Source: Hydrogenobaculum sp. 3684 (GTDB taxonomy: Bacteria > Aquificota > Aquificia > Aquificales > Aquificaceae). From it: a stretch of 64,000 nucleotides of DNA. Positions 10,258 through 30,320 of the stretch are shown one piece after another. Position 1 is the stretch's first letter. Each line of letters starts with the position of its first letter. The notes beneath the pieces were generated by a model. The model made no database searches. It was not told the origin of the DNA and worked only from the letters and a program-made list of their open reading frames with translations. The translations under genes were made by a program, and so were the position numbers. Location: NCBI RefSeq assembly GCF_000213785.1, contig NC_015557.1, positions 1,344,664-1,408,663 on the forward strand, written 5' to 3'.

Positions 10258-11361
10258 ATGTCATTTAAAAAAGAGGGGTTAGAACGTTTTTATATAATTT
10301 TTATAATTTTGGCTTTTCTTTTTATATCTTATGAACTTCATAGAATTGAAGTTAAGCTTTCTAAGTCTATAATAAATATTGTTTATAACCAAACCCAAGC
10401 CACAGTTTCCAATATAGCTTTAAAAGTAAACAACAAATCTTACAAGGAGCTTGACAACTATCTTCCGCTATTGCTTTCAAAAGATATACAGAGAGTTTTT
10501 GTGCTTGTCTATAAAAACGGTATTTTATACAGCGTAGAGGATTTACCAAAGCATGGTATTAGCTACCCACGGGTTTTTATGCCCACTACAGATGAAAAAC
10601 ATGTTATATTAAAAGCTATAAAAACTGGTACATCTTATGTAAAATACCATGATACTATAGAAAACGTGGGTTTTTCTCTTTACTACCCACTAAACGTCTT
10701 GATACACGATAAACCCTATAAAGCATTGATAATAATAGATTATAAGTTGAGTACGTTAAAAAGTTTAAAAGATACCTTAGCGAGTATAAAAATAGGCATA
10801 ATAATTATCGATATAATGTCGTTGTTGTTTTTGCTGACTATAGTATTTTTGCTTTTCAAAACAAGAGCTTACAAGATAGAATCTTATATAGATGAACTTA
10901 CAGGCTTACCAAATAGAAAACTGCTTAAAAGTATAAAAAACAATCAAGAAGATTACGTAGTTGCTATGTTAGATATTGATTTTTTTAAGAGAGTAAACGA
11001 TACGTATGGACACGATGCTGGTGACACAGTTCTAAAAGAGTTAGCTCAAGCTATAAAAAGTTCCGTAAGAAAAGATGATATTGTTTTAAGATGGGGCGGT
11101 GAAGAGTTTTTGATACTTTTAAAATGCAAACACCATGAGGCTTGTTTAAATACTTTAGAGCGATTGAGGATAAAAATAAAATCTATTGATATTAATATCA
11201 GCAATCACAATATAAAAATTAGCGTATCTATAGGGGTATGTTTAAAAGCTAAAAACTTGGATGAAGCTATTAAAAAAGCCGATGAGGCTCTTTATAAGGC
11301 AAAAAGAAGCGGTAGGGATAGAATAGAGGTTTATGAAGATAAAAAAGCTGTTACTTCTTAG
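10258..11361 (+). CDS. Membrane diguanylate cyclase with periplasmic sensor domain (GGDEF)
   Basis: A 367-residue c-di-GMP synthase. One membrane helix (about 12-31) precedes a periplasmic region of about 150 residues, a second helix (about 178-200) follows, and then a GGDEF domain. The active site reads RWGGEEFLILL near residue 279, and RKDD five residues before GGEEF is an intact RxxD inhibitory site, so the enzyme should be active and subject to product inhibition. The DELTGLPNRK start signature is present. Its 3' end overlaps the TonB receptor gene by 29 bp, so the two are coupled, which suggests the cyclase responds to something handled by the receptor. Confidence 0.9.
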   Translation: MSFKKEGLERFYIIFIILAFLFISYELHRIEVKLSKSIINIVYNQTQATVSNIALKVNNKSYKELDNYLPLLLSKDIQRVFVLVYKNGILYSVEDLPKHGISYPRVFMPTTDEKHVILKAIKTGTSYVKYHDTIENVGFSLYYPLNVLIHDKPYKALIIIDYKLSTLKSLKDTLASIKIGIIIIDIMSLLFLLTIVFLLFKTRAYKIESYIDELTGLPNRKLLKSIKNNQEDYVVAMLDIDFFKRVNDTYGHDAGDTVLKELAQAIKSSVRKDDIVLRWGGEEFLILLKCKHHEACLNTLERLRIKIKSIDINISNHNIKISVSIGVCLKAKNLDEAIKKADEALYKAKRSGRDRIEVYEDKKAVTS

Positions 11362-13261
11362 TTTGTTTTGTGTTGAATTTATCACCTCTTTAGCTTTTAG
11401 TCAAAACATAAGTAAGCTTTTGTCTATGTACAACAGCAAATCTGATTTATCTTATCAGACAAGAAAAGAGAGTTTAGGGCATTGGATTATTATAACAAGG
11501 CAAGATTTAAGGCGCATGCAAGCATATACCCTTGAAGATGTGCTGAAATCAATTCCAATATTTAACTATGGGCCAAATGAAAGCGGGAACTACTCTCTAA
11601 CGCTAGGTGGGTTTGCTTACGATTATTACAACCAATTTGCTATTTATATAAATGATCATCTTGTAAGCTCTGGCTTTAATGGAGATTTTAATTTGTATGC
11701 AGATTATCCTTTAAACGATGTTGATCATATAGAAATATATCTTGGCCCAGGTTCTGTCATTCTTGGCAATACGCCAAAACTTGTTATTATTAAGATATAC
11801 ACTAAAAAACCATCGAGGGAGAATATATCATCTTTAAGAATCACTCTTAACTCAAGAGGTGGCTACAATGTTGGGTTTTCTAGTGCAAAACCCATAAATA
11901 AAAACTTTTCTTATTCTTTTATGTACGATCAAGCCTACGAGGCCTTCCCAAAGTTTAACGTACTAAATATAGAACATTCAAGAAACGCCTTTAAACAATA
12001 CGCTTTTTTAAACCTAAATCACAAAGGATACACACATTTTTCTAACTGGCATATTGATATAAGCGCTGTTAGATCAAAACAAAACGTATTTGTAGGGGCT
12101 GAATTTGTAAATCCAGTGGGTGGTACAGACAAAGACCAAGATGCCTATATATCCTTTACAGATTATTTCGATAAAAGCCTAAAAATTCACTTTGCTTTAG
12201 ACATGGAACATAAAGATAATTATAAAAATTCATTTGATTTCCCTCTTTACATACCATATGCTTTAAATCAAGGAGAAATACCCATTTTTTACAATTTAAA
12301 TGCGAACATATACAAATACTCTGGGGATATACTAAAGACCTTTACCACCGATAAGAATAAACTTATAATAGGCTCTGGTTTTCAGCTTTTAAACTTTGAT
12401 ATAGATAACCTAAGTTACAACAATATACCTATAAATTCTTTAAATAAATATACTCATAGAAACTATTACACTGCTTACATAGAAGATCAATTTAATATAA
12501 ACGATAGAAACCTTTTGCTTGGAGATTTAAAGTTTGATAGGTACTCTTACAACGGGCATTTTAGAAACTCTGATTATTCTGCAAGAATTGGTTATATATC
12601 AAAACCCAAAAATAATATAGCTTTTAAAGGTTTCATTTACAAGACTTATACCCCTCCTCCTTTTCGAAATGCTTTATACAGCGGACCTTATCATCTTAAA
12701 AATGTAAAATATAAAGGTTTGAGCTTTGAAACAGATTATAATTTTTCAAGAGATAATATTAGATTCTTATACGCCTACATAGATATGAGAAATACTATAG
12801 AACCAAGCTTTAACTATCCTTATGGTTATTACAACATGTCATCTCCTATATATATGAATATATTTTGGCTTTCAAACACTTATTTTATAAACTCTTTTAA
12901 CAAGATAGAATTTGATTATTTTGTTAATAAACTTAACAAATTATATCATTCGCCAAATGAAGGGTTTTCTATAAAACTTTTTGATAGGTATAAAAATATA
13001 TATTTTTACAATGAACTTGTATACAGAAGTCCTTTTGATGGGTATTTTGGTATAAATGAGCCCTCCACATACATGTGGGATAGTGCCATCACTTACCATA
13101 TAAACCCTTATTACAGCATAACGCTAAAAGCCCAAAACATACTAAACAGCTCTTACAAGGTGCCAATTATCGTATATGATCAAAACGGCAATCCAAGCGG
13201 CTTATACAACGTAAACGCCTATCCTACGACATTTTATATAAGCTTGGAGAGGCTTTTCTAA
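11333..13261 (+). CDS. TonB-dependent outer-membrane receptor
   Basis: 642 residues, starting with a clear signal peptide (KIKKLLLLSLFCVEFITSLAFSQ). A plug domain follows at about 45-165, with ITRQDLRRMQAYTLEDVLKSI, then YINDHLV, then DVDHIEIYLGPGS and ending in VVIIKIYTKKP-like residues. The rest alternates aromatic-rich beta strands of a 22-strand-type barrel and ends in an aromatic residue (ISLERLF), as outer-membrane proteins do. The barrel is short for a siderophore receptor. The ligand is unknown. The gene overlaps the upstream cyclase by 29 bp and the downstream small gene by one base (TAATG). Confidence 0.85.
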   Translation: MKIKKLLLLSLFCVEFITSLAFSQNISKLLSMYNSKSDLSYQTRKESLGHWIIITRQDLRRMQAYTLEDVLKSIPIFNYGPNESGNYSLTLGGFAYDYYNQFAIYINDHLVSSGFNGDFNLYADYPLNDVDHIEIYLGPGSVILGNTPKLVIIKIYTKKPSRENISSLRITLNSRGGYNVGFSSAKPINKNFSYSFMYDQAYEAFPKFNVLNIEHSRNAFKQYAFLNLNHKGYTHFSNWHIDISAVRSKQNVFVGAEFVNPVGGTDKDQDAYISFTDYFDKSLKIHFALDMEHKDNYKNSFDFPLYIPYALNQGEIPIFYNLNANIYKYSGDILKTFTTDKNKLIIGSGFQLLNFDIDNLSYNNIPINSLNKYTHRNYYTAYIEDQFNINDRNLLLGDLKFDRYSYNGHFRNSDYSARIGYISKPKNNIAFKGFIYKTYTPPPFRNALYSGPYHLKNVKYKGLSFETDYNFSRDNIRFLYAYIDMRNTIEPSFNYPYGYYNMSSPIYMNIFWLSNTYFINSFNKIEFDYFVNKLNKLYHSPNEGFSIKLFDRYKNIYFYNELVYRSPFDGYFGINEPSTYMWDSAITYHINPYYSITLKAQNILNSSYKVPIIVYDQNGNPSGLYNVNAYPTTFYISLERLF

Positions 13262-13692
13262 TGAGATTTTTGCTAATTCTTGTTATCATACCGTATATAA
13301 GCTTAGCTTTTCAGATAGAAAAAAATGTCATACTCTCAAGGTTAATAGAGAAAATAGCTATAGCACTAACCCGTAAAAACAATCCGATAATATGCCAAGA
13401 CGGTGTAAATATTGAACCTGTAGCTCATTATTTTAGGTATGCTAGTTTTACTTTAAATTGTAACAATGCAGATATTGTGGTATCTAACTCTTATATACCA
13501 GCTTTTCACAAGCCCTTTTTGGCAATGAGCTATAATGCTTTGTTAAAAAATCCCGATGCTGTAGCTGGGCTTTATTGGCTTGATGGAAGATATCAGCTTG
13601 TGTTTGTAAAAGAAAGACTAAGAAGGTTTGGTATAACCCTACCAAAAGATTATAAACCTTTTGAAGTAAGCATAAAAGATTTAATTTTCTAA
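13261..13692 (+). CDS. Small secreted protein, third gene of the cyclase/TonB operon
   Basis: 143 residues with an N-terminal signal peptide (RFLLILVIIPYISLAFQ) and a soluble body. Two cysteines (ICQDG and LNCNN) could form a periplasmic disulfide. The C-terminal part (GLYWLDGRYQLVFVKERLRRFGITLP) has a Rossmann-like strand/helix rhythm seen in small periplasmic proteins encoded with TonB receptors and cyclases. It has no motif I can name; a YfiR (DUF4154)-like role as a periplasmic regulator of the cyclase is a guess from operon context. Confidence 0.6.
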   Translation: MRFLLILVIIPYISLAFQIEKNVILSRLIEKIAIALTRKNNPIICQDGVNIEPVAHYFRYASFTLNCNNADIVVSNSYIPAFHKPFLAMSYNALLKNPDAVAGLYWLDGRYQLVFVKERLRRFGITLPKDYKPFEVSIKDLIF

Positions 13693-29588: not shown

Positions 29589-30320
29589 ATGCCAAACGTT
29601 TTTGAAATAGATATAAAAGAGGTCGTTGCAAAATTACAAAAGGGTAAGGAGTACAATATATATACTGTGTATAGAGATGTACCTATCAACATAAAGGTGC
29701 CCTTTTCTTGGTTTGACATTTCTAAAACTAACGAGGTTTATTTGGCTTTTAATTGGAAAAATACATCTATGAAGTATGCTTTTCAAACTGGAAACCCAGT
29801 GTATGTGAAGATTGTTATACCATACCAAAGTAGAGAACTCTCTTTTTATATAAAATGTAGCGTTTTTTCAAGTGCTAGAGATGAGCTTGTGCTTATGGCA
29901 GAATCCTTAATAGATGTACCGCCATTTTTAAAAAGATCGAGCGTAAGGGTGGAGTTTGATTATAAGCATAAAGCTTATGCAAAGTTGTGCCTTGAGGACT
30001 TGGACGAATGTTTTTCAAACCTATCGTTAAAAAATATTAGCGAAACTGGTTTTGCTATAAAAATAGAAAAAGATGAAAACAAAGATATGATATTGGGTAA
30101 GATGAAAGATTTGGCAAGCAAAGATACTGTTTTTGATGTGGAGCTTTATATAGATGGCGATATCGTTAGGGGTAAGGCTAATCTAGTAAGTATATACGAA
30201 GAACAAGATGAGTTATACGCTGGCTTTAAGATGTCTGTGGATAAAAAAGACGCTGCAAAGCTAAGCTCTATCATTATGAAGCTTCAACAAGAGATAATTC
30301 AAGAGATAAAATCTCTATGA
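29589..30320 (+). CDS. PilZ-domain c-di-GMP receptor
   Basis: 243 residues. The first 110 form a beta-rich YcgR-N/PilZN-like domain. The PilZ domain begins with RSSVR (RxxxR, about residue 115) and continues with NISETG (N/DxSxxG, about 150), so both c-di-GMP-binding motifs are intact. It is coupled to the lipoprotein gene by an ATGA overlap. With the diguanylate cyclase at 10.3 kb and flagellar genes at 38.7 kb, a role in motility or surface attachment is likely. Confidence 0.88.
   Translation: MPNVFEIDIKEVVAKLQKGKEYNIYTVYRDVPINIKVPFSWFDISKTNEVYLAFNWKNTSMKYAFQTGNPVYVKIVIPYQSRELSFYIKCSVFSSARDELVLMAESLIDVPPFLKRSSVRVEFDYKHKAYAKLCLEDLDECFSNLSLKNISETGFAIKIEKDENKDMILGKMKDLASKDTVFDVELYIDGDIVRGKANLVSIYEEQDELYAGFKMSVDKKDAAKLSSIIMKLQQEIIQEIKSL

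Follow-up and report, generated by a model that had tools for sequence, protein, structure and literature searches.

A conserved gene triad points to a probable trans-envelope signaling module joining TonB-dependent receptors to c-di-GMP enzymes or kinases in Aquificota and Campylobacterota

Introduction

Little is known of the routes by which signals from outside the cell arrive at c-di-GMP enzymes. We analyzed a stretch of 64,000 nucleotides (hereafter the window) from the complete, 1.55-Mb genome of Hydrogenobaculum sp. 3684, in which genes for a membrane diguanylate cyclase, a TonB-dependent receptor and a small secreted protein overlap one another. An earlier note on this DNA had suggested that the three products form one signaling path from outside the cell to c-di-GMP. 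Here, we ask whether the arrangement is conserved, what the small protein resembles, and whether a signaling role explains the locus better than its alternatives.

Results

A Three-Gene Unit with Overlapping Reading Frames

The locus lies between genes for an FMN oxidoreductase and an adenylosuccinate lyase and consists of the following features:

10258..11361, + strand: DGC, inner-membrane diguanylate cyclase, 367 aa (GGDEF, E = 1.6e-41)
11333..13261, + strand: TBDR, TonB-dependent receptor, 642 aa (Plug, E = 3.3e-10)
13261..13692, + strand: SML, small secreted protein, 143 aa, mature form about 125 aa (predicted fold, without family match)

The DGC gene starts with an ATG at 10258 and its stop codon ends at 11361. 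It overlaps the TBDR gene by 29 bp, and the TBDR gene overlaps the SML gene by 1 bp, with the final base of the TBDR stop codon (13261) serving as the SML start. The three reading frames and both overlaps are exactly as the earlier note had given them. Its further statement that the proteins are made together is strengthened by the overlaps and by conservation across phyla (see below), from which we infer that the three genes are cotranscribed; promoter scans were uninformative in this AT-rich DNA.

DGC consists of a transmembrane helix, a Cache/PAS-like periplasmic domain, a second transmembrane helix and a GGDEF domain, with the two predicted membrane helices flanking the periplasmic domain. 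A Pfam scan detected GGDEF only and neither CHASE8 nor HAMP. The sequence retains an intact GGEEF active site and RxxD I-site (RKDD-IVLRW-GGEEF), and by these GG(D/E)EF and RxxD motifs the protein is predicted to be of the active diguanylate cyclase type. An AlphaFold model of residues 1-221 (pLDDT 87) found its nearest folds among the Cache domains of sensor kinases and chemoreceptors; the input domain is Cache/PDC-like both in relatives and by this model.

TBDR combines the plug and beta-barrel of a TonB-dependent receptor and lacks an STN domain. Its barrel gave no PF00593 match, and its length and conserved C-terminal F fit a barrel. Cir, CntO and FoxA are the nearest solved receptors, at weak similarity. 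No canonical TonB box was obvious in TBDR; proteins with a TonB_C domain are encoded in the genome. N-terminal to the plug lies a subtype-specific segment, LLxxYxxxSDLSxxTxxESxGH, which is conserved in triad receptors.

The Triad Is Conserved in Two Phyla

SML homologs were found in 44 of 136 Aquificota genomes and in 87 of the 397 Campylobacterota genomes sampled. A scan of named genomes with an alignment of six SML sequences picked up Persephonella, Sulfurihydrogenibium and Aquificaceae MAGs, and among Campylobacterota, for example, Sulfurimonas. All five Hydrogenobaculum species examined carry SML, as do many members of a second family in the order and, within the family of Hydrogenobaculum, one further genus. 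A search of a plasmid collection with SML gave no match.

At 81 of 93 distinct SML loci, receptor, SML and effector genes form a complete triad, adjacent and on the same strand; these loci were picked by SML, so that the linkage is conditional on SML, and related species do not count as independent cases. The usual order is receptor-SML-effector, with the effector first in Hydrogenobaculum and at one Campylobacterota locus (L178). Triads, one to three per genome, occupy several unrelated chromosomal sites and vary in gene order; nearly all of their junctions lie between about -28 and +12 bp. Because the layout recurs in two phyla with nearly always such tight junctions, we do not regard it as a product of chance. 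The earlier note had named a lack of co-occurrence in related genomes as grounds against its proposal; the triad proved to be conserved in them.

The 12 remaining loci include five at contig ends (L037, L088, L187, L188 and L192), three with split reading frames (L032, L083 and L195), one with an opposite-strand reading frame adjacent to SML (L165) and one where neither partner was recognized (L177). At L185 and L186, from two related MAGs, SML and effector adjoin and the receptor is absent.

Searching from the receptor side, with the subtype N terminus and plug, found this receptor in 38 Aquificota genomes, and 37 of them encode SML as well (Fisher P of about 5e-25, uncorrected for relatedness). 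Tree distances are correlated among the three proteins (r values of 0.57 to 0.66, permuted maximum 0.17), which partly reflects shared species history. A few paralogs of the triad receptor stand alone, accompanied by neither SML nor effector; they share a single conserved position in Persephonella-type genomes (L260:5494-7386, L261:3889-5814 and L262:5694-7586). They occur in genomes that also carry complete triads.

The Output Changes while the Receptor and SML Stay

The effector output is GGDEF only in Hydrogenobaculum; elsewhere, GGDEF-EAL is commonest, with both motif sets intact. Several Aquificaceae effectors have lost the GGDEF motif and kept the EAL motif, GGDEF-only effectors occur at five Campylobacterota loci, and histidine kinases take the effector position at L092, L153 and L162. 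Effectors with c-di-GMP outputs and those with kinase outputs have periplasmic domains that can be aligned with one another, with the exception of L162, which has a LapD/MoxY-like domain. For some members, Pfam classifies the input domain as Cache/PAS-like (dCache_1, best E = 4.5e-6). A LapD/MoxY domain was also considered as the general input domain and rejected, as it matches the kinase variant L162 only.

Signaling is much likelier than transport, because the output is swapped behind a mostly unchanged Cache-like domain. That receptor and connector stay the same while the output varies fits a signaling pathway and is hard to square with transport alone. At L153 (451-8698), the kinase triad precedes genes for a 963-aa protein, whose N terminus is substrate-binding-like, and for a response-regulator-like protein, and the region possibly encodes a longer signaling cascade.

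The earlier note had also proposed that a PilZ receptor at 29.6 kb could read the signal. The PilZ-like protein at 29589-30320 of the window contains the RxxxR (RSSVR) and NxSxxG (NISETG) motifs and falls below the Pfam cut-off (PilZ, E = 0.03). Any connection to the triad is speculation, since the genome has 11 GGDEF matches.

SML Resembles YfiR in Its Predicted Fold and Lies outside DUF4154

At its N terminus, SML has a hydrophobic stretch that looks like a signal sequence; it lacks a lipobox. Sequence searches against Pfam, NCBIfam and the PDB gave no match, in keeping with the earlier note, for which kinship to an unrelated enzyme family would have spoken against a signaling role: SML matches no enzyme family. 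Weak Pfam matches of single members, such as that of 1 of 21 to poxvirus VLTF3 (E = 0.004), were discarded as chance. SML represents a putative connector family of Aquificota and Campylobacterota that neither Pfam nor NCBIfam contains.

The AlphaFold model of SML (pLDDT 90) is a single alpha/beta domain. Across 26 sequences, W106, G109 and R110 are invariant; they belong to a conserved W-x-x-G-R hairpin and sit on its tip in the model, which we propose as a possible contact site. The best PDB matches by Foldseek (TM about 0.5) were a Rhodothermus single-domain substrate-binding protein, a Vibrio protein and YfiR chains, the substrate-binding-protein-like matches being 5z6v and 3lkv. YfiR chains made up 6 of the top 15 (TM 0.45-0.55, E = 0.08-0.22), and no Foldseek match reached E = 0.001.

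We compared SML with YfiR by profiles, using a DUF4154 set verified against YfiR structures. The two align collinearly over their full length, with a probability of 87 when signal peptides are included. For the mature regions the probability was 10.7, a weak value that nevertheless exceeded those of all 100 shuffled decoys. None of 21 SML proteins matched DUF4154 (PF13689), and no DUF4154 match was found in the Hydrogenobaculum genome itself. W43, at the end of the N-terminal helix and invariant in the YfiR alignment, has no counterpart in SML. Given the predicted structure and weak profile homology, SML appears to be YfiR-like in fold and not a DUF4154 member. This sharpens the view of the earlier note, which had taken YfiR-YfiN control as the nearest known idea and had called the small protein not clearly YfiR.

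YfiR-Family Proteins Occur in a Parallel Arrangement

In Campylobacterota, at L229, L235, L236 and L238, the gene for a true YfiR-family protein has a TonB-dependent receptor gene on one side and a GGDEF or GGDEF-EAL gene on the other. Plasmids of Sphingobium, Indioceanicola and Pseudoalteromonas also show the receptor-YfiR-effector arrangement. In plasmids from Alpha- and Gammaproteobacteria (L256, L257, L258 and L259), YfiR-like proteins are flanked by a TonB-dependent receptor and by an effector of the kinase or GGDEF-EAL type, and in the three plasmid effectors that were scanned, CHASE8 is combined with a kinase or GGDEF-EAL output. We found no description of a TonB receptor arranged with YfiR, DUF4154 or a diguanylate cyclase in the open-licence papers searched.

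Discussion

We consider it likely, judging from sequence and gene order, that the three genes encode one trans-envelope signaling module of receptor, SML connector and inner-membrane effector. The best reading is a YfiNR-like module in which a TonB-dependent receptor takes the place of YfiB and SML is a new YfiR-like connector. Linkage and modularity speak for the single path from outside the cell to c-di-GMP that had been suggested; the path itself we infer.

In the proposed mechanism, an external ligand would bind the outer-membrane receptor, and the state of the receptor would pass to SML, probably via the conserved N-terminal segment. SML would then bind the Cache-like periplasmic domain of the effector and set its activity, which at this locus would be c-di-GMP synthesis. 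The periplasmic face of the receptor would most likely contact SML, which would leave or rejoin the Cache-like domain and so alter c-di-GMP output. Like YfiR, SML might keep the cyclase inactive for as long as it is not sequestered by the loaded receptor; this repressing sign is roughly an even call, and an activating role of SML as a ligand carrier would be the less favored option. The physical contacts and the control by ligand are likewise presumed.

Such a carrier role leads to the alternative that fares best, which we hold to be possible rather than probable. It retains the signaling frame and differs in the role of SML, which as a ligand carrier or cosensor (as in NspS-MbaA or LuxP-LuxQ) would bind the imported ligand and activate or switch the effector. 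The substrate-binding proteins 5z6v and 3lkv among the fold matches agree with this role, as do the many GGDEF-EAL effectors, the output type of NspS-MbaA. However, SML is a single domain without a two-lobe cleft, its strongest conservation lies at the WxxGR hairpin tip and not in any obvious pocket, and the structures of YfiR, a protein-binding repressor, are similarly close to it.

That the triad is a true YfiBNR system diverged beyond recognition we regard as rather unlikely. The YfiR-like fold, the collinear profile alignment and the output swap (as in Malone et al. 2012) would all fit, but DUF4154, CHASE8, HAMP and a YfiB lipoprotein are missing, and some Campylobacterota genomes carry DUF4154 genes apart from their SML genes. 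Quite improbable is a nutrient-uptake locus with the c-di-GMP enzyme as a mere neighbor: although receptors and SML-like folds occur in uptake systems and the genome encodes TonB, the third gene nearly always encodes a signaling enzyme, whatever its class of output, and no conserved inner-membrane transporter was seen in the loci read. We give practically no weight to an accident of compact genomes, which are indeed small and gene-dense, against linkage across two phyla, differing chromosomal contexts, paralogous copies and more than one gene order.

Returning to the YfiNR-like module, we lean slightly towards the wider claim of a new, widespread kind of cell-surface signaling, in which c-di-GMP enzymes or kinases are directly controlled by TonB-dependent receptors through a dedicated periplasmic connector, without sigma or anti-sigma factors, with the SML family, absent from Pfam and NCBIfam, as the connector across Aquificota and Campylobacterota. 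If true, this would add a second general output route for TonB-dependent receptors, besides the mainly sigma regulators, and offer a route by which external cues reach c-di-GMP enzymes. It would also help to trace what many orphan GGDEF-EAL proteins of hot-spring and vent bacteria respond to, and it puts a name, SML, to a conserved uncharacterized protein family.

Among known systems, FecA-FecR-FecI resembles the triad in that a TonB-dependent receptor carries an external signal across the envelope. It differs in its parts: STN, FecR and an ECF sigma factor were not found in TBDR (Plug only) or in the immediate neighbors of the triad, and the triad output is c-di-GMP or a kinase, which bears out the distinction from the FecA-FecR-sigma route drawn in the earlier note. 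In NspS-MbaA of Vibrio cholerae, a periplasmic protein controls a membrane GGDEF-EAL enzyme; unlike the triad, that unit has no outer-membrane receptor, and NspS is a full two-lobe binding protein.

YfiBNR (YfiN is also TpbB or DgcN) of Pseudomonas and E. coli shares with the triad a small periplasmic alpha/beta protein, a cyclase in the inner membrane whose periplasmic domain is PAS-like, an outer-membrane partner and swappable output domains (PMC3375315). YfiR represses YfiN via its periplasmic domain (Malone et al. 2012, PMC3375315). In divergent systems, GGDEF-EAL or a histidine kinase can replace the output of YfiN, and YfiB is often absent, in an account whose main text does not mention TonB (PMC3375315). 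The triad, in contrast, has a TonB-dependent receptor instead of the Pal-like lipoprotein YfiB, SML instead of a DUF4154 protein, and an effector without CHASE8 or HAMP. The receptor-YfiR-effector triads share gene order and apparent logic with the SML triads, but they have a true YfiR-family protein, CHASE8 in the three scanned plasmid effectors and a different receptor N terminus. In some YfiR systems, a TonB-dependent receptor may be the missing outer-membrane partner.
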